NCBI GenBank assembly: GCA_019654215.1
Contig: BPDI01000010.1
Location: forward strand, 1-64,000
Source of the DNA: Gammaproteobacteria bacterium
GTDB lineage: Bacteria > Pseudomonadota > Gammaproteobacteria > Pseudomonadales > Pseudohongiellaceae
DNA: 64,000 nucleotides
Direction of reading: 5' to 3'
Part shown: positions 24,713 to 51,317 of the stretch, piece by piece
Layout: every line of letters begins with the position of its first letter
Position numbering within the stretch: the stretch's first letter is position 1
Translations under genes and position numbers: made by a program
Notes under the pieces: model-generated
Database searches by the model: none
Told to the model about the DNA's origin: nothing
The model's input: the letters and a program-made list of their open reading frames with translations, nothing else

Positions 24713-24730
24713 GCTTACTTCCACTCAATG
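24713..24730 (-). repeat. Degenerate copy of the guaA-end core (R0)
   Basis: On the minus strand it reads CATTGAGTGGAAGTAAG, against TATTGAGTGGGAGTAAT in the core at 29213: one internal mismatch over ATTGAGTGG-AGTAA. It overlaps the stop codon of the membrane-protein gene that ends at 24725, just as the original core overlaps the guaA stop. Confidence 0.55.
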
Positions 24731-25225
24731 TACTCTAAAAAATAACGTCCTGATAAACGCCACTGAGCTTTGAATTAAATAAAGGACCAAACAAGTTATA
24801 TATATCTGAGATGGCTCATAAAAATTGCTGGTTATCATTAATAATGAAAGAATAAATATGGTTGATAAGATTCCTGTTTGAAATAGATACAGTTTAATTG
24901 GAAAAATATCTTCATGCCCTAATCTTCTCAGATGAATCATTCTCCTGGGAAATATTATCAACCCTATTGCCCAATAAAGGCTCATAATCCAGAAACAAAC
25001 TAACCAAGCAAATTCGAAATTTTTATCACCGAATACAGCAAAAGGAACAATTGATCCAAACATAGCGCCGAAGGCAGAATAAGTTAACAGCTGTATCCTA
25101 AAGTTGTCTGGATCTGAAAACCCATCTGAGCTTCTACTCAAACCAATTAATATTGCTGAAAAACCTATAATGCCTAGAGCTATTTCTCCCATTAACTGAA
25201 ATGCATCAAAATTCGGCTCCATCAC
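24725..25225 (-). CDS. Four-helix integral membrane protein, unknown function
   Basis: 166 residues beginning MEPNFDAFQLMGEIALGIIGF with about four hydrophobic helices (roughly residues 12-30, 45-65, 75-95, 115-160) and a short basic loop PRRMIHLRRLGHED. I do not recognise a family with confidence; it resembles small uncharacterised membrane proteins of marine bacteria. ATG at 25222 is preferred to the GTG just before it. It forms one cassette with a possible small reading frame before it. Confidence 0.65.
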   Translation of the reverse strand: MMEPNFDAFQLMGEIALGIIGFSAILIGLSRSSDGFSDPDNFRIQLLTYSAFGAMFGSIVPFAVFGDKNFEFAWLVCFWIMSLYWAIGLIIFPRRMIHLRRLGHEDIFPIKLYLFQTGILSTIFILSLLMITSNFYEPSQIYITCLVLYLIQSSVAFIRTLFFRVH

Positions 25226-25358
25226 TACACCCCACTAAGAAAAATACCAAAAGGGAAAAAAAAAACAAGTCGCCAATCCCTCCAATAATAATTATTGTCC
25301 AGAACAATCTCGGATTTTCAAAACACCAATCTATGAGACTGTCAAACATCAGGGGCAT
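25206..25358 (-). CDS. Possible small membrane protein starting inside a core repeat
   Basis: ATG at 25358 lies in the core at 25357, followed by PLMFDSLIDWCFENPRLFWT and a hydrophobic IIIIGGIGDLFFF. As given it ends after 50 residues, overlapping the start of the next gene. A run of ten T at about 25255-25264 makes the C-terminus uncertain: one base more gives a 45-residue protein ending near the next start. No family recognised. Confidence 0.35.
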   Translation of the reverse strand: MPLMFDSLIDWCFENPRLFWTIIIIGGIGDLFFFSLLVFFLVGCSDGAEF

Positions 25359-25440
25359 TACTCCTACTCAATAGTATACATAAAAATACCTTATTATTCA
25401 AACATTTACAAGGGTATTTTTCTACTATGTAGTGAATTTC
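25357..25440 (-). repeat. Core plus type B arm (R1)
   Basis: Core ATTACTCCTACTCAATAGT on the plus strand, then an arm with TACAAGGGTATTTTTC and the inverted repeat TACTATGTAGT. Same arm as at 29213 and 30682. It divides the RidA cassette from the membrane-protein cassette. Confidence 0.8.
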
Positions 25441-25489
25441 TCTTTTTTCTTTCGTTCCTTCAATCGTGTATAAAAAGTAAATTGTTGTA

Positions 25490-25930
25490 TTAGTCTTTGA
25501 CCGCAATCCCCTGCATCTCAAATCGCAGACCAAATAGAAGTGGTCCTGAACCAATAAATGCTCTGGGAGGAAAATCCTTTGAAAAGTAGCTTCTATAAAC
25601 CTCGTTGAAATCCGAGTACAAGTTCAAGTCCGTACAGTAAATGGTCACATAAACCAAATCATCCATTGTCATTTCCACTCGTTCTAGCGTCGTTTTAAAA
25701 TCCTCCATTAGTAAACGAGCTTCTTCTTTCGGGTCTTCAGGAACCGTCCGAGTGCCCGGCAAAACACCCCCTTTACCAGAAACATATAAAGTGTTTCCAA
25801 CCAAAGCAGCATCACTGAACGGAAGATCTTGTCCAGCAACTTCACTCTTAAAGTAGGTTGTCCCTTCTCCTGCAAATGCGCAACCAAAAAGCGTAAGTAC
25901 TAAGATAAAAAGTATTGTGGGTTTATTCAT
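25490..25930 (-). CDS. RidA-family protein with lipoprotein-like signal
   Basis: YjgF/RidA family, normally a cytosolic enamine/imine deaminase. The body matches (LPFSDAALVGNTLYVSGKGGV, EEARLLMEDFKTTLERVEMTMDDLVYVTIYCTDL, FPPRAFIGSGPLL with the family arginine). The first 22 residues MNKPTILFILVLTLFGCAFAG form a signal peptide with an LFGC lipobox, so it is probably exported and lipidated. That is unusual but known for some members. Single gene of its cassette, bounded by the cores at 25986 and 25357. Confidence 0.85.
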   Translation of the reverse strand: MNKPTILFILVLTLFGCAFAGEGTTYFKSEVAGQDLPFSDAALVGNTLYVSGKGGVLPGTRTVPEDPKEEARLLMEDFKTTLERVEMTMDDLVYVTIYCTDLNLYSDFNEVYRSYFSKDFPPRAFIGSGPLLFGLRFEMQGIAVKD

Positions 25931-25985
25931 AGCATTCTCCTTTGTTTCTTAAATTATCGTTAGCCTTTGTGTCTCTATTTCTATC

Positions 25986-26090
25986 ATTCCCACTCAATAA
26001 TTACCTTATCTAGAACCTCAGTATAATCATTGGTTTCAAGGCAAGTTATTATTTTTTGTGTGACTTTTGTGTAACTTCTTATCTACCATG
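25986..26090 (-). repeat. Core plus type A arm (R2)
   Basis: Core ATTCCCACTCAATAAT followed by TACCTTATCTAGAACC, then CAAGGCAAGTTATTAT and two near-direct repeats GTGTGACTTTT and GTGTAACTTCTT, ending TTATCTACC. Nearly the same arm is found at 27397 and 28677, beside unrelated genes. Confidence 0.88.
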
Positions 26091-26150
26091 ATCAAAATCT
26101 TCTCTTAAAAATTTACTTATCAAGGGAACCCTATGACTTTAAGACACAAC

Positions 26151-26183
26151 AAAAAAAAGGTGAGTCTAATGACTCACCTTTTT
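26151..26183. terminator. Rho-independent terminator after the tandem membrane-protein genes
   Basis: Stem AAGGTGAGT / ACTCACCTT with loop CTAATG, A8 on the left and T5 on the right, so active both ways. It lies 16 bases after the stop of the second paralogue (26199). Confidence 0.88.
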
Positions 26184-26198
26184 AACGTACGGATACTT

Positions 26199-26576
26199 CT
26201 AATCAGCTGTAATTCGTGATTTTAGGTCAATGATCAGCGCGGCAATTGCATAACCTGCTATGGCAATGGCTAATTGATCAACGAATTGGTTGAGGTACAT
26301 TCCAATGGCGGGGATCGACTCCAAGGTATTCGCCAATCTGGGGAATCCAAATGCGGCTATTATTATGAAGGCTATTGAAGCCGGTTCTGTAACTGGACTC
26401 ATTAATCCGTGTACCAACCCAATCAACAGAAGTACCAATATGAACCACTGGGCATTTCCATCAAGGACATAGCCCCCAACTCCGTCAAACGGTATGCGTT
26501 CAACACCTCCAACAACGAATACTGCTATAGCAGCCACAATCACGGCTGCGATAGGGGCAAGTTTATCTATATTCAT
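26199..26576 (-). CDS. Small membrane protein, second tandem paralogue
   Basis: 125 residues: MNIDKLAPIAAVIVAAIAVF (helix 1), GNAQWFILVLLLIGLVHGLM (helix 2), ASIAFIIIAAFGFPRLA (helix 3), then an amphipathic or fourth helix QLAIAIAGYAIAALI and a charged end. About three quarters of positions are identical to the gene at 26663. The GGYVLDGNAQW segment between helices is kept in both. No family recognised. AAGGAAAT precedes the ATG. Followed by a strong terminator. Confidence 0.75.
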   Translation of the reverse strand: MNIDKLAPIAAVIVAAIAVFVVGGVERIPFDGVGGYVLDGNAQWFILVLLLIGLVHGLMSPVTEPASIAFIIIAAFGFPRLANTLESIPAIGMYLNQFVDQLAIAIAGYAIAALIIDLKSRITAD

Positions 26577-26662
26577 AGTTATTTCCTTAGTTAGTATCTT
26601 AATAAAAGCAACTTCATGCCTAAGGCAAGTCCTGGGATTAGCCTTTTAGCGAATGAGAGCTT

Positions 26663-27040
26663 TTAATCAGCCATAATGCGTGATTTGGTTTCATTGATTA
26701 GGGCAGCAATTGCATAACCTGCTATGGCAATGGCTAAGTGATCAATGAATTGATCGAGGTACATCCCAACTACGGGGATTGAGTCCAACGCATCCGATAA
26801 CCTGGGGAACGCAAATGCAGCCACTATAACCATAGCCTGTGAGGCATGATCTGTAACCGGACTCATTAATCCGTGTACCAACCCAATCAACATAAGTACC
26901 AGAACGAACCATTGGGCACTTCCGTCAAGGACGTAACCACCCCCCTCCGCGAACGGTATAAATTCAACATCTCCAACAACGAATACTGCTATAACAGCCA
27001 CAACCACCGCAGCGATAGGGGCGAGTTTATCTATATTCAT
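26663..27040 (-). CDS. Small membrane protein, first tandem paralogue
   Basis: Same architecture as the gene at 26199: MNIDKLAPIAAVVVAVIAVFV, GGYVLDGSAQWFVLVLMLIG, VIVAAFAFPRL, HLAIAIAGYAIAALI. I start at MNIDK (27040) because it is the shared start; an in-frame ATG two codons earlier is not kept in the paralogue. The pair lies in one cassette with no core between them, so they arose by local duplication rather than by two insertions. Unknown function. Confidence 0.75.
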   Translation of the reverse strand: MNIDKLAPIAAVVVAVIAVFVVGDVEFIPFAEGGGYVLDGSAQWFVLVLMLIGLVHGLMSPVTDHASQAMVIVAAFAFPRLSDALDSIPVVGMYLDQFIDHLAIAIAGYAIAALINETKSRIMAD

Positions 27041-27046
27041 AGTCAT

Positions 27047-27396
27047 TTCCTTAGTTAGTATTATTTTGGCAGCAACTTACTATGCAACTTATACGTGCGA
27101 CCTTTCTGTATCTAAGCATTTTAAGAACAGCTTCTCAAGCTCTAAGACTAACAATGTTTTTATGACAGATAGAAGCGTAATTGCAGACTAATTAGTTTGT
27201 AAATTTAATGCATTTGGTGTCGGTGCAAGAGCGCCTGCATTATTTCACAGAGGGGACATTAGGTCGGATTCAGACCTATGCAGCCGGGTTAAGAAAACGA
27301 CTGTGAAGCCTCGCATAGGAACTTAAATTTAGGGTGAACAGCAACTTTTGCGATAGCTTTCTTAGCTTAGTCGCTTTGGGGTATGTTATTGATTTT
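27047..27396 (-). other. 350-base leader without a gene upstream of the tandem pair
   Basis: No convincing reading frame. Its middle part (about 27220-27310) is richer in G+C than the neighbourhood and has several short stems, for example AGGTC-TGAATCC-GACCT on the minus strand. It may hold the promoter and a structured leader RNA for the paralogue pair, or a decayed gene. No known RNA family recognised. Confidence 0.35.
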
Positions 27397-27486
27397 ATTC
27401 CCACTCAATAATTACCTTATCTAGAACCTCAGTATAATCAATGGTTATAAGGCAAGTTATTATTTTTGTATAACTCTCTTACCATG
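27397..27486 (-). repeat. Core plus type A arm (R3)
   Basis: Core ATTCCCACTCAATAAT then TACCTTATCTAGAACC and AAGGCAAGTTATTATT, shared with R2 and R4; one of the two GTGTAACTT-like repeats is missing. The arm ends against the stop codon of the amine oxidase gene (27488). Confidence 0.88.
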
Positions 27487-27487
27487 A

Positions 27488-28678
27488 CTACAGATTCGTC
27501 AGAAGCTTATCAATAGAGTGATATCCAGAGACTATAGCTCCAGGAACACCTAGTTGATGGTTCAAATCATTAACTTCCCCTGCAAAAAACACTTTACCAT
27601 TTAATGGTTCATTTAGAGTTTGAATTAATGATTGGTTATATTGAAATGATTCTATCCAAGTTCCTAGAGTAAACTCATGTCGTCCCCAATCTTCTAAAGC
27701 ATATTCTCCGGTAAATGCTTTAGATGCTTTTCCTTCGTAAATTTGATCTAGCTCTTCCAGTGCTTTTAAAACTATATGTTCTTCAGATTCTAAACAGTAA
27801 AAATCTTCAACAGAGCTTCCTTGAACAAGTAAACCTAAAATATGGGTTTCAGTCTCTTTCTTGAAAGCCATATCATAATATTCCTTCTCTCCTGTTTTAG
27901 CCTTGCACATAATAATATCTGGATAGAATTTTTCTGAAAATTTCATAACCAACTTAAAACCGGGCATAAAGACAATAGATTCAATTGCATCTTTCTTTTC
28001 TTTACTGATATCTGGAATGAAACTGATATAGTCAGATTTCAAGATTCCAATCGATACAGTAACCAGTACTTTATCCGCTTTATAAACCTTCCCTGATCTA
28101 GTTATTACATCCACTTTATCTTCAGAGTAGTTAATTTTTGTAACAGGGGAGTTAAATTCGATCTTGTGTTTCACTTCTTCCGCAAAATTTCTATCTAAAA
28201 AATTAAACCATGAAGAATTCTTAAACTTAAATTCAGGAAAAAATTTAAACCTAAAGAAAAAAAGCAGTCTCAATAAGGAAGAATTTATCCAGGTGAAAAT
28301 TTTTCCATATGAACTATAACCAAAGTCTTTGTCAAACTTGTAAAAAGCGTTATAAGGAACGGTTTCCTCTTCAACTAGATCTCCTGATTTACCTTTAAGG
28401 CGATTTAAAACGGCAGGCAGATGATGTATCCATTCTGCCCCCAAGTCGATTGGGAAATCAGCCAAAGTTTTGTTTTCTTTCAATCTTCCGCCATATCTGT
28501 TGGAAGCTTCAAGTACAAGATAGTCAATGTTATTTGTTTGTAATATTTTTGCTGCAGCTAACCCTGAAGCTCCAGCGCCTATAACGATAACTTTTCCCTC
28601 ATAGCTATATGTTTTATGCAGAGCAGTATCCTCTGGAAACATGTCCAAAGCTCTTGAGCCCCATCTAAAAACTTTCAT
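27488..28678 (-). CDS. Flavin-containing amine oxidase family protein
   Basis: FAD enzyme of the monoamine/polyamine oxidase family, oxidising an amine with a flavin. FAD site VIGAGASGLAAAKIL and LEASNRYGGRL at the N-terminus, IDLGAEWIH, the middle VDVITRSGKVYKADKVLVTVSIGILK, and the C-terminal KVFFAGEVNDLNHQLGVPGAIVSG. About 397 residues, complete. ATG at 28678 lies inside the core repeat at 28677; a GTG two codons earlier is also inside it. The stop abuts the arm of R3, so the cassette is almost all coding. Substrate unknown. Confidence 0.88.
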   Translation of the reverse strand: MKVFRWGSRALDMFPEDTALHKTYSYEGKVIVIGAGASGLAAAKILQTNNIDYLVLEASNRYGGRLKENKTLADFPIDLGAEWIHHLPAVLNRLKGKSGDLVEEETVPYNAFYKFDKDFGYSSYGKIFTWINSSLLRLLFFFRFKFFPEFKFKNSSWFNFLDRNFAEEVKHKIEFNSPVTKINYSEDKVDVITRSGKVYKADKVLVTVSIGILKSDYISFIPDISKEKKDAIESIVFMPGFKLVMKFSEKFYPDIIMCKAKTGEKEYYDMAFKKETETHILGLLVQGSSVEDFYCLESEEHIVLKALEELDQIYEGKASKAFTGEYALEDWGRHEFTLGTWIESFQYNQSLIQTLNEPLNGKVFFAGEVNDLNHQLGVPGAIVSGYHSIDKLLTNL

Positions 28679-28776
28679 TCCCACTCAATAATTACCTTAT
28701 CTAAAACCCCAGTAAAATCAATTGTTTTAAGGCAAGTGATTATTTTTGTGGGACTTTTGTGTAACTTTTTATCTAC
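28677..28776 (-). repeat. Core plus type A arm (R4)
   Basis: Core ATTCCCACTCAATAAT, TACCTTATCTAAAACC, AAGGCAAGTGATTATT, then GGGACTTTTGTGTAAC and TTTATCTAC. It contains the start codon of the amine oxidase at one end and the stop codon of the acetyltransferase at the other. Confidence 0.88.
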
Positions 28777-29210
28777 AGAGATTGCCTCATCTCTTCACCA
28801 ATTTTAACAAAACCATATTTTTCATAAAAAGGTTGGTTGTGTTTTGTAGATTCAAGTATATAAAGTCCAAATTCTTTGCAACCCCTTTTCTTGGCTAATA
28901 TAAGAGTTTCTTCGATTAACAGCCCTCCGACATTCTTCCCTCTAGCATCTTGATCAACAACTAATTCCTCTAGTTGACAGTATTCTCCGTTATATCTCAG
29001 CGCAAGATTAAAAGAAATGGATGCCATTCCTAGAATTTTTTTATTTTCCTCCGCAACAACTAGACTACCTCTCTCGTTGGAAATTAGTTTATTAAAAGTA
29101 TCTGAATCAAAAGTTTCATATTGATCAGATGTAGCCTTAGACAAAACGTTAAGTAATTCCGAGCATCGCGGCTGATCTTCTGATTTAGCAAGTCTTATCT
29201 TTACGCTCAT
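28773..29210 (-). CDS. GNAT-family N-acetyltransferase
   Basis: 145 residues with the GNAT fold: N-terminal SVKIRLAKSEDQPRCSELL, beta strands KKILGMASISFNLAL and CQLEELVVDQDARGKNVGGLLI, where the R-x-x-x-G-G acetyl-CoA loop is RGKNVGG, and the end HNQPFYEKYGFVKIGEEM typical of the family. Start at ATG 29210, 8 bases after GAGTGGGAG supplied by the core repeat. The substrate is not known. Single gene of its cassette. Confidence 0.88.
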   Translation of the reverse strand: MSVKIRLAKSEDQPRCSELLNVLSKATSDQYETFDSDTFNKLISNERGSLVVAEENKKILGMASISFNLALRYNGEYCQLEELVVDQDARGKNVGGLLIEETLILAKKRGCKEFGLYILESTKHNQPFYEKYGFVKIGEEMRQSL

Positions 29211-29212
29211 TA

Positions 29213-29296
29213 TTACTCCCACTCAATAATAGACATAAAATATATTGATAGCATTCAATAATTTACAAAGTTATTTTTCTACTATGTAGTAACTTT
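29213..29296 (-). repeat. Core plus type B arm (R5)
   Basis: Core ATTACTCCCACTCAATAAT, AGACATAAAATATATTG, TTCAATAATTTACAAAG, and the inverted repeat TACTATGTAGTA followed by ACTTTTG. Nearly the same as R7 and related to R1. Confidence 0.88.
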
Positions 29297-29429
29297 TGTT
29301 CCCTTCCACCATTATCAATTTAACGTTTTAACATCATTAGTAATGATTTTACTTTTCGATCAATGTAACCTTTACTTCTCTTTCTTTACATGATAAGTTT
29401 ACGTTACATAACTAAGTTAGGCGAAAATT

Positions 29430-29819
29430 ATGACTACCCTAATTCCAATTTTAGGAATACTGACAGGAATCATTATCCCCGTATCGGTATTTATCTGGCT
29501 ATATTATGAAGGAAAGGGCAAGAGAGAAACTGCACTAGAGATAGCTAAACACATGGACGATCCTTCTAAAGTGGAGGAATTACTAGGTATTTTCGACGAA
29601 AGAAAAAAAGAACCGATAGATTATCGAAGAGGAGGAGTAATAACGATTTTTGTAGGTATTGGTATCTATCTTCTTGGTGTTGCTGCGATGGGATCTTTCT
29701 TTGAAGGGGTTGGGCTTTTAGTTGGTGCCATAGGGGTAGGTATTATGATTGCTGGATATCTCTACCCAAATACTAGTGAAGAACTAACCAATGCTGTTGA
29801 GAAATTTGAAGAGAAATAA
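29430..29819 (+). CDS. Membrane protein paired with an XRE regulator (DUF6249-like)
   Basis: 129 residues: N-terminal helix LIPILGILTGIIIPVSVFIWLYY, a cytoplasmic stretch KGKRETALEIAKHMDDPSKVEELLGIF, then two helices (VITIFVGIGIYLLGVAAMG, EGVGLLVGAIGVGIMIAGY). This layout is common in small bacterial membrane proteins found with short XRE regulators. Ends three bases before the regulator gene. It reads against the direction of guaA, so it needs its own promoter in 29297-29429. Confidence 0.75.
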   Translation: MTTLIPILGILTGIIIPVSVFIWLYYEGKGKRETALEIAKHMDDPSKVEELLGIFDERKKEPIDYRRGGVITIFVGIGIYLLGVAAMGSFFEGVGLLVGAIGVGIMIAGYLYPNTSEELTNAVEKFEEK

Positions 29820-29822
29820 AAA

Positions 29823-30035
29823 GTGGGCAAAAACCACAAAAAACTTTTAAACAATCTTGAAGAACTTAGGAAATCTTCTGGTTTAACTCAACAAGAACTT
29901 TCTGAGAGTGCAGAAGTATCAAGAAAAAGTATTAATGCGATTGAAAACGGAATTTATGTGCCCTCCACTGTTCTTGCATTAAAAATTGCTAAAACTCTCA
30001 AATGCTCTGTTGAAGATTTATTTCAATTGCCCTGA
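29823..30035 (+). CDS. XRE-family transcriptional regulator
   Basis: 70 residues, nearly all one helix-turn-helix of the Cro/XRE type: NLEELRKSSGLTQQELSES, AEVSRKSINAIENG, YVPSTVLALKIAKTLKCSVEDLF. GTG start at 29823. It lies three bases after the membrane-protein gene, so the two are co-transcribed; by analogy to such pairs the regulator may control its own operon. The gene ends 20 bases before the core at 30055. Confidence 0.9.
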   Translation: MGKNHKKLLNNLEELRKSSGLTQQELSESAEVSRKSINAIENGIYVPSTVLALKIAKTLKCSVEDLFQLP

Positions 30036-30054
30036 TTTCATCTTTAAACCAGTT

Positions 30055-30085
30055 ATTCCCACTCAATAGTAGACATGAGAAAAAC
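30055..30085 (-). repeat. Core with a divergent arm (R6)
   Basis: Core ATTCCCACTCAATAGT, identical to the guaA end, followed by AGACATGAGAAAAACC; only the first bases of the arm resemble type B. It divides the regulator cassette from the thioesterase cassette. Confidence 0.82.
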
Positions 30086-30144
30086 CCCAATAAAAACAAA
30101 GGTTAGACAACCTTTTATAAAGCCACTATTTAAACCAAAATAAT

Positions 30145-30612
30145 TTATTTAATTTTAAGCTTTGTTTCAAAAGGATAATCACCAGATGATTCATGCTCCT
30201 TTTGCATCTTTACCATAGTCTCAAAGATTTCATCTGATATTTCTGCAGATTTTCTTATAGACATATCAATATGGATTTCAACAGTTTCAACCAGAGCTGC
30301 CACTTCATCTGATTCTTTACAAATTGCACATACGTAGTGGTATAACTTTTTATTTACGTTAAGCATTCTGAATCTAGGTGTTAATTTTTCACCTTTTAAA
30401 CATTCTTTCAGATATCTAATATTTTGTTCAGCTGTAAAAGATGAAAAACCCTTGGCAATATAATCTTCCCCAAAACCAAGACTGTTATAGAAATTGCTAT
30501 CATAATCCATAGGAATAGTTTGGTAGAATCTTACATTCATATGTCCATTCATATCACACATGTCATCAGATACGATCACAGATGCACCTTCGGTTGGAAA
30601 TATATCTTTCAT
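30145..30612 (-). CDS. Hotdog-fold acyl-CoA thioesterase-like protein
   Basis: 155 residues with DDMCDMNGHMNVRFYQTIPM near the N-terminus; the D-x-N/Y-G-H-M-N segment before the long helix is typical of 4HBT thioesterases. The following helix segment (NSLGFGEDYIAKGFSSFTAEQNIRY) and VETVEIHIDMSIRKSA also fit. It probably hydrolyses an acyl-CoA; the substrate is unknown. Start lies 70 bases after the core at 30682. Single gene of its cassette. Confidence 0.75.
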   Translation of the reverse strand: MKDIFPTEGASVIVSDDMCDMNGHMNVRFYQTIPMDYDSNFYNSLGFGEDYIAKGFSSFTAEQNIRYLKECLKGEKLTPRFRMLNVNKKLYHYVCAICKESDEVAALVETVEIHIDMSIRKSAEISDEIFETMVKMQKEHESSGDYPFETKLKIK

Positions 30613-30681
30613 AAAATTATTACGTTAGTTAAAAATGCATCGTTAGTGTTTAATGGTGGGAAATAATTTTAAGCGGGCATC

Positions 30682-30783
30682 ATTCCCACTCAATAATAGA
30701 CATAAAATATATTATTAATATTCAATAATTTACAATGGTATTTCCCTACTATGTAGTAAGTATGTAGTAACTTTTGTGTAAGT
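30682..30783 (-). repeat. Core plus type B arm (R7)
   Basis: Core ATTCCCACTCAATAAT, AGACATAAAATATATT, TTCAATAATTTACAAT, then TACTATGTAGTAAG and a second TATGTAGTAAC, ending TTTTGTGTAAG. The tandem TATGTAGTAA units look like protein-binding repeats. Confidence 0.88.
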
Positions 30784-30851
30784 TCATTTTTAGCACAATT
30801 TGATATTATAAATGTTCTAGAAAAAGCTAAAGCAAAGGAATGAGGGCACCT

Positions 30852-31811
30852 ATGAGTAAATCAATTTTTACATTAGCTTGGAAAAGTAATTGGACTGGAG
30901 CAAAAGATGGTACAGCCCAGGGAGTAGCCAAACAACGCTTGATTGAAACACTATCCAAATCCGATGAACGTATCATAAACGATCCTTACGCCGATAGGTT
31001 TGTAATAGGTCCCTAGCATTATCAAACTGATGGGACATAAGCTCAACGTTTGGTTGGCTCAAAAGTTTGCACCTGGTTTTCACGAACATCTAGTTTCGCG
31101 TACGCGCTTCATCGATGATCTAATTAAAAAAAGTGCTGCCAGTGGGGCAGAGCAATATGTCCTTCGGGGAGCGGGATATGACTCCCGGCTCATCGGCTTG
31201 AACTTCCATCTTCACTAAGAATTTTTGAAGTAGACCAGCCTGAAGTTCAGGCTAGAAAACGCTCTAAACTTCCCAAAGAATTACCCAATTCAGAAAATGT
31301 CACTTATGTGACTGTTGATTTCACTAACCAGTCGTTAACTAAGCAACTTAGGGAAAGCAGGTTTTGATCAAAGCAAGTCCACTGTCTTTACGCTCGAAGG
31401 CGTCTCGCAGTACGTCACTAAAGAGGCTGTCAGTTCAACGATCAAAGAAATGGCTACGCTTACTCAAAAACCCCAGTTAAATTTTTTTTTATATCGTATG
31501 TCAACGAACTTCTCAAAAAAAATCCTGAGGCTTGCTTTGGTAAGGGTTACCCAAAAACCCCTGCAAAACGAGCTAAATTAATAACAAACTTATCAGCGAA
31601 AGCCGGTGAGCCTTGGATATCTTTCTACGGTGCTGAAGAAATAGAAAGCGTACTTTCGCAAAATGGTTATTCAATAAAAGAAAACGTGACTTTGAAGGAT
31701 CTCAACTCTCAGTACTTTGCCCCTGTCGGAAGAACCCTTCCTGAAAATCAATTATTTTACATGGAACATTTTGTGGTAGCTAAATCAATAGGTTACAAAG
31801 AAAGTGTGTAG
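30852..31811 (+). CDS. SAM-dependent methyltransferase, leucine carboxyl methyltransferase family, frameshifted
   Basis: Family of bacterial LCM-type O-methyltransferases. Start MSKSIFTLAWKSNWTGAKDG, then VSRTRFIDDLIKKSAASGAEQYVLRGAGYDSR (the R-T-R-F-I-D-D and G-A-G-Y-D-S-R motifs are diagnostic), FEVDQPEVQARKRS, VFTLEGVSQYV and the end ENQLFYMEHFVVAKSIGYKESV. Shifts lie near 31013, 31200, 31350 and 31490. It converges on the FkbM gene inside the guaA-proximal cassette and runs against guaA. Confidence 0.82.
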
Positions 31812-31979
31812 TAGTTTATAAAAATAGAATTTCTTTTAAAAAAACAAAGATTTAAACTAATGGTATTTGATTATCAGAAAAAAATTTTTTGGTATGAATC
31901 ACCATCCCATGATTCGTTTTCCGATTGTAATTTAGGAAGATTATTTGGTTGTTTTTTGTTCTAGGTACTGCCAGTATAT

Positions 31980-32697
31980 TCATATCTCCGGTCGCTCCAA
32001 AAATATTTTCTTGATGTTTTTTTTCCCGTTATTCTTTCTAAACCAGAAAGCAAAATGCCAATAACAATCCCACCCATTATTCATAAACCATTTAATACAT
32101 TCTCTTGTACTAGATAATTTTTTTTTTGCTTCAAAATATACAACTGGTTTATGTAAGTTAAGAAAAGAATCTGCCCCCTGAATTACCTCCCATTCATGAC
32201 CTTCTACATCAATTTTTATAAAACCACATTCTTTAATCTTAAATTCATTCAAATTTATTGCTTTAACTTGATGACCCCTTTTTCGGCAACACCTACTGAT
32301 CCATACCTTCCTTTTGAACTTAGTTCATCACTATCTAAATAAACCCAACCAGATTTAGATGAAATAGCTAAAGTATATACTTCTATATTTTTTATATTAT
32401 TTATTAATACATTAGCACTCAAACACTGTGACATTATTTGCTGGGGTTCGAATGCATAGACCTTACCAGTCTCTCCCACAGATCTTGATAATGAAATTGC
32501 TGTTGTTCCAATATTTGCACCAATATCTATTACAATGTCACCATTATTTACAAACCGAGACATCACAATATTTTCGCCCTCTGACCATTCCCCATACAAA
32601 GGTAAACCCTTTTTCCAACCACCAGATCATTTCGCGGAAAGATCATATTTCCATAGTGGGACTCGCAAATATTTAGTTCCTTCAAATTTATATTCAT
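31980..32697 (-). CDS. FkbM-family methyltransferase, frameshifted
   Basis: SAM-dependent methyltransferase of the FkbM type, usually acting on sugars or polyketides. MNINLKELNICESHYGN at the start; NNGDIVIDIGANIGTTAISLSR is motif I; KVYAFEPQ is motif II; CGFIKIDVEGHEWEVIQGA is the family's most conserved segment. Shifts near 32600 and 32255. The ATG at 32697 is only 10 bases after the guaA stop, so it is almost certainly on the guaBA transcript. Confidence 0.85.
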
Positions 32698-32707
32698 TTT
32701 GTACCGA

Positions 32708-34301
32708 TCATTCCCACTCAATAGTTGCGGGAAGGGGTTTGGCCCCGGAAATTCCCCCTAAACCAAACTCCAAGAGGAAAGTCAGCGATTTCATTCATAA
32801 TTCGACTAGAAATTGTCTCTAGTAATTCCGAATCAAGCCTCGCCCAGCGTGCCGTCATAAAATCTATAGTTTCGACGGCTCTAAGTGTAATGACATAAGA
32901 ATAGCGCCGTGCATCTCCTACAACGCCTACAGACTTGACCGGTAAAAACACTGCGAACGCTTGGCTTACTTTTGATAGCAATCTGCTTTGTGCAATTCTT
33001 CAATAAATATTGCGTCTGCCAAACGCAAGATGTCACAGTAGTGTTTCTTCACCTCTCCTAATATTCTTACTCCTAATCCAGGACCAGGAAACGGATGACG
33101 GTAAACCATTTCATATGGAAGACCCAACTTAAGACCAATCTTTCTTACTTCATCTTTAAATAATTCCCGCAGAGGTTCTACCAATTCCAGCCTCATATCA
33201 TCAGGTAGACCACCAACGTTATGATGCGACTTGATTACATGTGCTTTACCAGTTTTGGATCCTGCAGATTCAATGACATCGGGGTAAATAGTGCCCTGTG
33301 CTAACCACTTAACATTATCCAGCTTCTCAGCTTCTTCATCGAAAACTTCGATAAAAGTATTGCCAATAATTTTTTCCGCTTATCTTCAGGGTCATCAACA
33401 CCAACTAGATTCCCAAGGAATCGCTCTTCCGCATCTGCTCGGATTACTTTAATCCCCATAGTATTGGCAAAGGTTGCCATTACCGGGGTCCCCTTCATCT
33501 AACCGCAAGAGCCCATTATCAACAAACACACAGGTAAGCTGGTCACCAATCGCTTCATGTAAAGTGCCGCAACAACTGAAGAATCTACACCACCGGACAA
33601 ACCCAACAAGACATTGTGGGGGCCGACTCTTTCTCTCACAGTATGAATTGCATCTTCAATTATACTTACAGGTGTCCAGAGCGATTCACATCCGCAAATA
33701 CCATGGACGAAGCGCTCAAATTTTTTCCTGCCCTTGCAAAGTATGAGTAACTTCAGGATGAAATTGAATGCCGTAAAAATTCCGTGACTCTTTACACATC
33801 GCTGCTATTGGCGCGCTATCAGTTCTGGTAATAAGCGAAAACCATCGGGGGCTTCAGTGACTTTATCGCCGTGACTCATCCAGACGTCGAGCTGCGCTCT
33901 GCCGTCTTCCATGAATCGATCCTCAATACCATCCAGAAGTTTTTTTTCTCAGTAACATTTACCTGAGCAAAACCGAATTCTGATTTAGAGGAAGCTTCAA
34001 CTTTTCCCCAAACTTTTCTGCCATAATTTGCATGCCATAACAAATACCAAGAATCGGTACGCCATAGTTATAGACATGAGAGTTTTGTTTGAGGCGAGAC
34101 TTCGGATTGGCTGACTCAGGCCCCCAGAAAAAATCCCCCCCTTGAGGATCAAATTCCTTGGGGTTTTTTCCCGGCAACTTCATAATCCCAAATTTCACAA
34201 TAGACTCCCGCCTCGCGAACGCGTCGGGCAATTAATTGAGTGTATTGAGAGCCGAAATCCAGAATTAAAATTTTCTGGGAGTGAATGTTGGCTGCTGGCA
34301 T
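32708..34301 (-). CDS. guaA: GMP synthase (glutamine-hydrolysing), frameshifted
   Basis: Converts XMP to GMP using glutamine and ATP. The N-terminal amidotransferase has [22 protein letters not shown] and the catalytic GICYGMQ; later frames show the dimerisation domain with [15 protein letters not shown] and the C-terminal ATIEWE end. Frame changes are frequent. The 3' end (32710-32725) is the core copied throughout the island. ATG at 34301 ([17 protein letters not shown]) is preferred; it lies about 100 bases after guaB. Confidence 0.97.
32710..32725 (-). repeat. Original core (attB-like site) at the guaA 3' end (R8)
   Basis: ATTCCCACTCAATAGT on the plus strand, coding for the last residues TIEWE plus the first bases of the stop on the minus strand. 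Protein sequence forces conservation of this site, which would explain why the copies stay similar. It is identical to the core at 30055. Confidence 0.85.
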
Positions 34302-49276: not shown

Positions 49277-51317
49277 TCAAAGTTTGTAAGCAACCAGACG
49301 TCCTGCAACTCCTGTTCCGCTAACTGCGATGACAATATATTGTTCGCCATTCAGTTCATAGGTCATCGGAGATCCAGTTTGTGGTGCAGGTAAACGAATT
49401 GCTCCGACTTCTGCACCGGTACTTTTATCATAAGCCCGCAACATAGCGCGGCGTTCACCATCTTCATTGGTTGTTAATTCCGCTTCACCCGCTATAACCA
49501 GTGTCTTGGTTACCATTGATCCCACCGAAGCGCCCTGTCCTGTTCTCGGTAAATCCATTTCTACCAAGGCCGGATGATTAGCGATGCGATCCGGTGTTTG
49601 GCCGTGGGGTACCTGCCAGGCGATTTCCCCTTCTTCTAAATCTATAGCAGTTAAACGACCATAGGGAGGTTTTAATATTGGCAATCGATCCACTAATAAA
49701 TTTCGCGGAGGATTACCACGAGTTGAAACCGGACGTCCTCTTTGGGTGGCTGAAAATTCGGTGCGCCCACCACCGGCGGAAGATCCTGCACCCCCAGAAG
49801 TTCGTGGACCAGAAATCGCGTTACCCTGGATATACGCCATATCAGACTGACCAGGATAAGGCTCAACCACAGCAAGACTAACAACCGAACTATTCGAAAT
49901 AACATACAACATATTGGTTTCTGGGTCATAGGAACCGCCGGGCCAGTTAGTACCTCCCCCTGTTGCCGGCGCCATTAAGGTGCCAAGTGGCCCATCTATA
50001 TTGCTTACAACCGGTGGCGTAAAAAGCGGACCCATTTTGTGCCAGCTTGCTATCTCAAGAGCACGAGCTCTTAACTGCGGAGTGAAGTCTATTAAATCGT
50101 TTTCTGAACCCCTTGGCCCGGGCATAGGCTGGGGGTTTTGTTGGAATCGGCTGAGTAGGTGAATACCACTCCCCCGGGACGTCACCGATTTCAACTGGTT
50201 TTTCTTCGATTGGCCAGATGGGTTCTCCGGTTTCCCGATCAAACACATAAAGAAAAGCCTGCTTGGTAGGTTGCGCAACTATTTTGCGTACCCGTCCATC
50301 GATGACTATGTCGGGAAGAATTGGAGCACAGGGAATGTCATGGTCCCAGATGCCATGATGAACTAGCTGGAAATGCCATTTGCGTTCACCGGTGTATAGA
50401 TCCACAGCAACTAGCGATTCCGAAAACAAGTTGTCGCCCGGTCGATACGCGCCGTAATAGTCCCCGGTTGCTGCTTCTACTGGCAGGTAAACCGTCTCTA
50501 GTTCTGCATCAACAGAAATTTGTGCCCAGACTCCAGTATTACCAGTGTATGAAGCAGAGTCGTTTAACCAGGATTCATTACCGTATTCACCGGGCAAGGG
50601 AATCGTATGGAAAACCCATAAGCGTTCCCCAGTTCTTACATCGAAACCACGGACATAACCTTTTACATTTTCACGACTGCGTGGATTGCCACCAGTGCGA
50701 TGGGCAGCACCAACGATTACTACATCTTTGGCAACGATAGGGGTTGAATGCAATCCAATTTCCCCTGTTACCAGATCTATTTGTTGGTCAGCGTTTTGCT
50801 TGAGATCGACAATACCATTATTGCCAAATTCACTTACTGGAATTCCTGTAGCGGCATCCAGTGCAACCATCTGGTAACCAGGTGTCACATACACAACTCG
50901 TTCTTCATCACCAGCTCTCCAATAGGCTAAGCCACGCCCAGAAAGTTGACGCGGGGCATTTTGGCCCGCTCTCCTTCGTTAAGATTGTAAAACCAGAGTA
51001 GTTCGCCAGTGGGTGCATCGAGAGAAACCACCGAGCGTCGAGACCCCGCTGTAGAATAAATTTTCCCATTCACCTTTAAAGGTGTAGATTGAAAACGATA
51101 TTCGGGACTGGGGCCGAAATTGGCTGCATTGAATTCCCAGGCAACAGTTAAATCCGAAAAATTGGTAGCATCGATCTGATCCAACCCAGAATAACGCGTA
51201 TGGCCGAGATCGCCACCATAGGTTGGCCACTCCCCATTAGGAGCGCCCTGCTGAGCATTTATTGATGAACTAAGGAAGGCTGCCACGAGAAAAAAAGGCA
51301 GGGAAAATTTTATTCAT
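49277..51317 (-). CDS. PQQ-dependent glucose-dehydrogenase-like quinoprotein, frameshifted
   Basis: ATG at 51317 (MNKIFPAFFLVAAFLSSSINA) gives a signal peptide missed by a later GTG. WPTYGGDLGHTRYSGLDQI opens the propeller; GYVRGFDVRTGERLWVFHTIP, NLFSESLVAVDLYTGERKW and LVHHGIWDHDIPCAPILPDI follow, the last being the pattern of membrane glucose dehydrogenase and its soluble kin. Shifts near 50910 and 50155. C-terminal PGTEQYIVIAV-like end reads NGEQYIVIAVSGTG. It precedes the other quinoprotein by 37 bases on the same strand. Confidence 0.88.

Follow-up and report, generated by a model that had tools for sequence, protein, structure and literature searches.

A stretch of 64,000 nucleotides from a Gammaproteobacteria bacterium of the family Pseudohongiellaceae (assembly GCA_019654215.1, contig BPDI01000010.1, positions 1 to 64,000; here called the window) carries, behind the GMP synthase gene guaA, a row of small gene cassettes separated by copies of the guaA 3' end. 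We think it probable, at about three chances in four, that these cassettes are non-autonomous and coupled to guaA, and that integrases specific for guaA move them in trans; the best reading of the array is that it works like an integron without being one. Short core repeats in a single orientation, repeated arms beside them, core-bounded sharing between taxa and start codons placed at the core are all observed, as is, in relatives, an integrase gene directly behind guaA with repeats of like spacing. We propose that small cassettes would be added at the guaA 3' end by site-specific recombination, the unit being a guaA-end core, one or two genes and an arm of about 100 bp, followed by the next core. 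Larger guaA-specific elements would supply a tyrosine integrase in trans; it would recognise arm and core and insert or remove cassettes, presumably as circles, and guaA would be left whole. The interpretation given in the initial annotation of this DNA, which had proposed stepwise addition of cassettes behind guaA, is as a whole supported.

A search of the window with ATTCCCACTCAATART, allowing up to three mismatches, gave ten matches where 1.15 were expected; 100 shuffles all gave fewer. Eight of them form the array, with the consensus ATTCCCACTCAATA(A/G)T, and span 25360 to 32710: 25360 (two mismatches), 25986, 27397, 28677, 29215 (one mismatch), 30055, 30682 and 32710. The other two, at 51133 and 56860, have three mismatches each and look like chance. 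The recurrence first reported is therefore real, although two of the positions given for it, 25357 and 29213, were off by two to three bases. One copy is the true 3' end of guaA at 32710, as had been stated, seven lie behind guaA, and a decayed outermost copy was absent from the first list; all point the same way. The exact 14-mer of the core occurs six times in the 2.96-Mb genome (73% complete), every time inside the array, and a control pattern does not occur at all. A chance or REP-like (repetitive extragenic palindromic) repeat was rejected on the shuffle counts and this confinement, and the exact core is not the dispersed repeat named at the outset as fatal to the interpretation. A looser form of the core has one further site, on another contig (C34:27874; locus L186 of G000), with arm-like sequence upstream; the gene beside it belongs to a family found as a cassette in G016 and G105.

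Read in the direction of guaA, the array runs guaA-core-gene-arm-core-gene-arm-core. The features are listed below from guaA outwards; cores 0 to 7 were placed by mismatch search, and the bounds of the arms and of the LCM-family gene are approximate.

32718..34301, minus strand: guaA (GMP synthase), split by frame shifts in the assembly, start read by eye
32710..32726, minus strand: core 0, the true guaA 3' end (attB-like)
31980..32599, minus strand: cassette 1, FkbM-type methyltransferase split into two pieces, of which only the first was run against Pfam
30852..31811, plus strand: LCM-family methyltransferase, broken, opposite to guaA
30699..30793, minus strand: arm of cassette 1 at core 1, GTTACACAAAAGTTAC-type repeats followed by an AT-rich stretch
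30682..30698, minus strand: core 1
30145..30612, minus strand: cassette 2, 4HBT thioesterase
30055..30071, minus strand: core 2
29430..30035, plus strand: cassette 3, pair of a DUF6249 gene and a Cro/C1-type helix-turn-helix (HTH) gene, opposite to guaA
29232..29300, minus strand: arm at core 3
29215..29231, minus strand: core 3, one mismatch
28773..29222, minus strand: cassette 4, GNAT acetyltransferase
28694..28776, minus strand: arm at core 4, of one family with the arms at cores 5 and 6
28677..28693, minus strand: core 4, containing the ATG start of the next cassette's gene (GGGAATGA)
27488..28684, minus strand: cassette 5, flavin amine oxidase
27414..27480, minus strand: arm at core 5
27397..27413, minus strand: core 5
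26199..27046, minus strand: cassette 6, two related small proteins in tandem
26003..26086, minus strand: arm at core 6
25986..26002, minus strand: core 6
25490..25930, minus strand: cassette 7, Rid/L-PSP family
25360..25376, minus strand: core 7, one to two mismatches
24725..25225, minus strand: cassette 8, no Pfam match
24717..24733, minus strand: decayed core 8, the outermost

The genes of cassette 6 (26199-27046) are two tandem copies, about 78% identical, and the protein that was run against Pfam (26199-26576) had no match. At core 3 the arm resembles that at core 1, an 81-nt stretch including the core being 88% like its counterpart.

The position of the genes relative to the cores was examined in 104 core-to-core intervals of up to 4 kb from 65 loci (37 intervals from the genus and 67 from the genome scan described below), with a median core-to-core interval of 1146 bp. 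The longest open reading frame (ORF) is co-directional with guaA in 83 intervals and opposite in 21. Starts within 12 nt of the core were found for 32 of the 83, compared with 6.6 at random and a maximum of 15 in 1000 trials. Ten starts lie inside the core itself (ATG in GGGAATGA, GTG in one) and overlap a TGA of the guaA frame. Co-directional genes that begin near the core are what an integron array would also show. Seven of the eight intervals in the window have their longest ORF in the direction of guaA, in line with the earlier statement that nearly all genes are so oriented; the HTH/DUF6249 pair and the pieces of the LCM methyltransferase run the other way. The placement of starts at the core suggests that the cassettes are read from guaA, which would drive their expression, and that the first cassette is translationally coupled to it, readable as an extension of guaA through the start at the core and the ATG/TGA overlap. 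The cassettes would on the same grounds be promoterless. Scans gave 22 promoter candidates against 31.3 in shuffles and 8 terminator candidates against 5.4.

The arms have a format of their own. Among 48 same-genus arms in array context (including a few possible chance cores inside genes, in G014, G038 and G107), 21 contain an 8-bp direct repeat (at least 7 of 8 matching) at a spacing of 11 bp, and the spacings 8-10 and 12-15 give 0-2 arms each. In a wider set of 158 arms a repeat at spacing 9-13 was present in 98, compared with 18% of shuffles; the spacing was exactly 11 in 78 of these 98, and the repeats concentrate in two zones, about -74 to -69 and about -62 to -59 relative to the core. 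Support is weak for a dyad (for example AAACCCTT...AAGGGTTT) that frequently lies 11-12 bp before the core, and likewise for a strong arm hairpin (inverted repeat score of at least 6 in 22 of the 48 arms, against 21% in shuffles).

The arms also decide against a true integron, or a cluster of attC sites lacking an integrase (CALIN), in which attC cassettes would be moved by IntI. The layout is the same, with a core, a gene starting nearby and a site at the gene end. Several genus genomes have, elsewhere, PF00589 matches of about 325 aa with some 30 extra residues, which look like integron integrases (IntI), and true integrons may coexist within the genus. However, the best match to the complement of the core in the 48 arms was 6.69 of 11 compared with 6.58 in shuffles, so there is no attC-type fold and integron identity was rejected; the core is the guaA end and not GTTRRRY. 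Contig C10, which carries the array, has no PF00589 match and hence no IntI beside the array (the genome is 73% complete), and the initial claim that both IntI and attC are missing holds for this contig. We give this explanation next to no credence.

The same locus was then compared within the genus, which appears to be the OM182 clade. The sample comprised 84 genomes, 60 of them with the C-terminal domain of guaA; guaA flanks were compared in 58 and in the window (G118, with its match at a contig edge, was excluded). The slot is bounded by guaA and by a conserved block that ends with purL. A degenerate core gave 71 matches in 39 of the 84 genomes (guaA's own end counted), compared with 6 for a control pattern, and 14 genomes have at least two cores. 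Eight genomes including that of the window (G000, G006, G016, G031, G046, G113, G114 and G115) carry additional perfect cores on the same contig as guaA; in others, such as G105, G116, G117, G028 and G047, the arrays lie on contigs unjoined to guaA. Eight guaA contigs break off no more than 150 bp past the gene; a repeated site would lead one to expect this, although such breaks may have other causes.

Several cassette families recur in these maps: 4HBT in seven loci, LCM in five genomes, and a small one (f71) in second place in G113 and last in G116. The window thioesterase has counterparts of 94% identity in G016 and G047, and intact homologues of its LCM methyltransferase lie behind a core in G006 and G028 and also occur in SAR86 ALOHA_A2.5_132. 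The cassette 8 gene has a homologue behind the last core in G016 and behind the next-to-last in G047. Relatives thus hold some of the same genes in another order and combination, and not the fixed order that would have spoken against cassettes. In the maps across species the cassettes vary while the locus stays the same and carries repeats of the guaA end, which is also the mark of an additive flexible genomic island. That the FkbM cassette, nearest guaA, is the most recent is plausible. The presence of one family at the outer end of G000, G016 and G047 alike fits guaA-proximal cassettes being newest but is no proof. In G054 the DNA directly behind guaA (locus L069, C64:1-1450) is an IS91-family element annotated as ISVsa3 on plasmids. 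This 1450-bp stretch, which includes the guaA end, is 94-95% identical to some plasmid records and is at least 80% covered in 25 of 4500 matching records; contamination is possible.

A scan of 84,980 species genomes with the pattern GGTTT-N11/12-AYTATTGAGTGGGA yielded 71 stretches against about 7.5 expected (an estimate for uniform base composition). Within the retrieved sequence, 54 of them have two or more cores (allowing one mismatch) and 36 a guaA end upstream. Many are labelled SAR86, and SAR92, SAR11, SAR116, Porticoccaceae, Rhodospirillaceae and Polynucleobacter are also represented. Ten cassette genes of other taxa were run against Pfam: they include small enzymes (GNAT, methyltransferase, monooxygenase, glyoxalase, metallo-hydrolase), two domains of unknown function and three unmatched.

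Sharing between array loci was assessed from 85 alignments of at least 180 bp, a list that also takes in conserved genes behind the array; an end was counted if it fell between -25 and +40 of a core start in both loci. Fifteen left and 18 right ends lie at a core in both partners, where random placement gave a mean of 0.125 and a maximum of 2 in 200 trials. G028 and G115 have one cassette of 1430 bp in common, 99.5% identical, with cores at both ends, and its left neighbour is guaA in one genome and another arm in the other. The amine-oxidase cassette of the window recurs in SAR86 HE327 directly behind guaA, core to core (85.5% over 1308 bp), and in SAR86 AG-365-P19 one place further from guaA (84.4%); the latter genome also has the window GNAT gene (87%). 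SAR11 AG-404-N21 and SAR86 AG-349-F19 share 519 bp at 94.6%, beginning at a core, whereas the guaA end of the former is 63.3% identical to that of another SAR86 genome. OM182 G016 and SAR86 FRAM_WSC20 share 730 bp at 95.3%, and their guaA ends 69.6%. Judged by sequence identity, the cassettes are more alike than the guaA ends of their hosts.

The enzyme that would move the cassettes is a long integrase of about 410-443 aa (PF00589). Its profile matched nine of the 84 genus genomes at E 1e-15, seven of them within the guaA slot. It is the first sizable gene behind guaA in G006 (broken), G009, G010, G023, G039 and G043, a remnant is found in G046, and the contig end of G011 has 23 matching residues at the same place. 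G370, a single-contig genome from another family of the order, has guaA, core, long integrase and a convergent recombinase of about 190 aa. The 180 bp behind the core were searched in eight such elements (G006, G009, G010, G011, G023, G039, G043 and G370), two pairs of which, G009/G011 and G010/G023, are near-duplicates. All eight contain 8-bp repeats spaced 11 bp apart, at 40-55 nt from the core; spacing 12 is found in seven of the eight, and the remaining spacings from 8 to 15 in 0-2. The initial annotation had suggested looking for a tyrosine recombinase whose own attachment (att) site carries the same core: relatives do have such an enzyme, its gene immediately following guaA and repeats at 11-bp spacing lying by the core, but it was not found in the incomplete genome of the window. 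The four PF00589 matches of the window genome lie on C54, C31 (two) and C70, and the long-integrase profile matched none of them.

The full arrangement core - arm - long integrase - cargo - short recombinase - arm - core is complete only in G006 (with the long integrase broken); its left part is visible in G043 and G370. The short recombinase, of about 190 aa, is a Xer-like catalytic domain; in G006, G117 and G002 a distance of 159-191 bp separates it from the core that follows. Remnants occur behind guaA in L247 and L256, the only scan loci with this gene besides L237 (the same as G117), and there are six matches among 390 genomes of the order at E 1e-30. As sole mover it was rejected, being missing from the other mapped genus arrays. 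In G110 (locus L160, C54) a short recombinase gene is followed by repeats spaced about 11 bp and by an apparent tRNA 3' end (no complete tRNA by ARAGORN), and here the arm format may serve other targets than guaA.

Host XerCD, or homologous recombination between arms and cores, might move the cassettes without a dedicated integrase. In 23 of the 44 cassette-bearing scan genomes, which are incomplete, there are at most two PF00589 matches; in many SAR86 and SAR11 genomes both are about 300 aa and apparently Xer-like by score. The arms, moreover, are repeated within an array. Against this, the core is unlike dif, homologous exchange is not expected to set boundaries in a short core between unrelated arms, and a guaA integrase with like-spaced repeats exists. 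We regard this explanation as very unlikely.

A more serious alternative is that successive full islands at guaA decayed to remnants that kept their att sites, known as cis-mobilisable elements (CIMEs). The array would then reflect old accretion and ordinary recombination, with no movement of single units today. It is indeed made of att-bounded, integrase-free units at a site used by integrases in relatives; most arrays lack an integrase, G006 and G046 hold integrase remnants, the outermost core of the window is decayed and some of its genes are broken. There is also published precedent in the accessible parts of two papers (PMC5704250, PMC3146451). Frame shifts split the guaA, FkbM and LCM genes within 30852-34301, and they may be sequencing errors and not decay. 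What decay does not readily account for are single cassettes with sharp core ends common to distant taxa at 85-99.5% identity with differing flanks, and starts at the core beyond chance, unlike a product of decay. We therefore consider a stack of fossil islands unlikely.

Several observations weigh against movement of single cassettes by a guaA integrase. The 85 alignments are non-independent, and at least 52 have at least one end off a core. The scan was selected on GGTTT and is uninformative for arms of other type; 16 of its 71 stretches, including those from WWE3, Marivirga, a Firmicutes metagenome-assembled genome and Tissierella, show no second core and no guaA end within the retrieved sequence. 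Taxon names are as labelled in the records and binning errors are possible: G047:C65 and G113 have 4.8 kb at 99.7% identity, and one is perhaps mis-binned. At the threshold used, 27 of the 48 genus arms have no 11-bp repeat, and most cassettes are missing a second arm beyond the core. Integrases of the lambda type usually need such an arm. The long-integrase profile was unmatched in the window genome (73% complete) and in most array genomes, G002 has two long-integrase loci without a nearby core, and G105 has a weak match elsewhere. The genomes, one per species, showed no excised circle, no junction read and no variation within a species. Finally, no clear viral carrier was found with the arm-core patterns, the bare core or the integrase profile.

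A virus may nevertheless carry the cassettes, as the core and 11-bp repeats occur together on some viral contigs. Two arm-core patterns gave no match among viral contigs, and no viral relative of the long integrase was found by profile search. The bare core is present on 26 viral contigs, six of which have the guaA coding end upstream by pattern. Two of the six, L298 and L304, carry an integrase-like ORF immediately after guaA, which is the usual arrangement of a guaA provirus; in L305 such an ORF lies about 1.3 kb before the core, and 11-bp repeats lie at about 110 nt before it (integrase labels by eye). On three of the 26, the phage or provirus contigs L302, L303 and L308, 11-bp repeats lie about 65 nt before the core, like those of cassette arms. 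L303 and L308 look alike, and no integrase-like ORF was seen in the inspected part of the three. The short recombinase matched 426 plasmid records, all below 60% identity (41% the best among the matches listed), and 55 phage records, all below 60%; the long integrase matched two plasmid records, at 29% and 23%. Azospirillum sp. B510 plasmid NC_013858.1 has distant relatives of both enzymes, the short (41%) and the long (23%), about 14 kb apart.

The nearest described system is GIsul2, a guaA island of about 15 kb with three att sites, a tyrosine integrase and the core GAGTGGGA that is also found at the guaA 3' end here; in the accessible part of its description the integrase both cuts out and inserts a unit that lies between two of the three guaA-type att sites, and does so in recA- E. 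coli as well, deletion of int abolished integration, and int lies outside the smaller unit as judged from the primer layout (PMC9376610). The target and core are therefore the same, and the GIsul2 integrase likewise moves a smaller att-bounded unit. An integrase inside the element, as in GIsul2, is not present on the window contig and is present in G039, G043, G370 and others. GIsul2, as far as that description goes, is one island, whereas the guaA arrays are many single-gene units, mostly without integrase and common to several classes.

Tandem units bounded by repeats of a gene 3' end are also known as CIMEs (defined in PMC5704250) and from the ssrA islands of Dehalococcoides, 15 of 31 of which have no integration module (PMC3146451), according to extracts of both papers. 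The guaA units have a median of 1.1 kb, starts at the core and between-class exchange. The ssrA islands, in the same extracts, are larger, belong to one genus and use Ccr-like recombinases, which we take to be of the serine class. Additive flexible islands of streamlined plankton (tRNA-Lys repeats in Ca. Methylopumilus, tRNA cassettes in Ca. Actinomarinales) likewise pile small cassettes at a gene end with its repeats (PMC10872708, PMC7771536). Compared with these islands through partial descriptions, the guaA arrays differ in their protein-gene target, the arm format, cassettes spread across classes and starts overlapping the target stop. Tycheposons are cargo elements of marine bacteria with tyrosine recombinases; in the portion of the account seen they have a tRNA border, 4-200 kb and the recombinase inside (PMC10872708). 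A tRNA search of the window found none, and the target is guaA. Integrons share the core - gene - site layout and growth by arrays and differ from the guaA array, which has no IntI on the contig, no attC-type fold and an essential gene as capture site.

Tandem accretion at 3' ends, CIMEs, ssrA islands without integration modules and additive islands at tRNA repeats are thus known in print, as far as the partial texts show (PMC5704250, PMC3146451, PMC10872708, PMC7771536). We regard single-gene units, the arm format, starts on the stop of the target gene and between-class exchange as new. Among the matches listed in a literature search, which covered mostly open-access papers and no bioRxiv preprints, none concerned guaA cassettes in these taxa, and OM182 and SAR92 were not paired with guaA.

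These arrays could be part of a second, IntI-independent cassette economy in the ocean. Here guaA would be, in many lineages, a shared site of capture and expression, and genes starting on the guaA stop would circulate between SAR11, SAR86, SAR92 and OM182, moved by trans-acting guaA integrases; on this wider proposal we are evenly divided. Few routes of gene gain are known for streamlined ocean bacteria, and a common att site with a cassette format would account for single genes moving between classes. It also points to one defined region worth searching in every genome, the sequence that follows guaA. If true, integron-like logic would have evolved independently from an ordinary integrase and become coupled to an essential gene.

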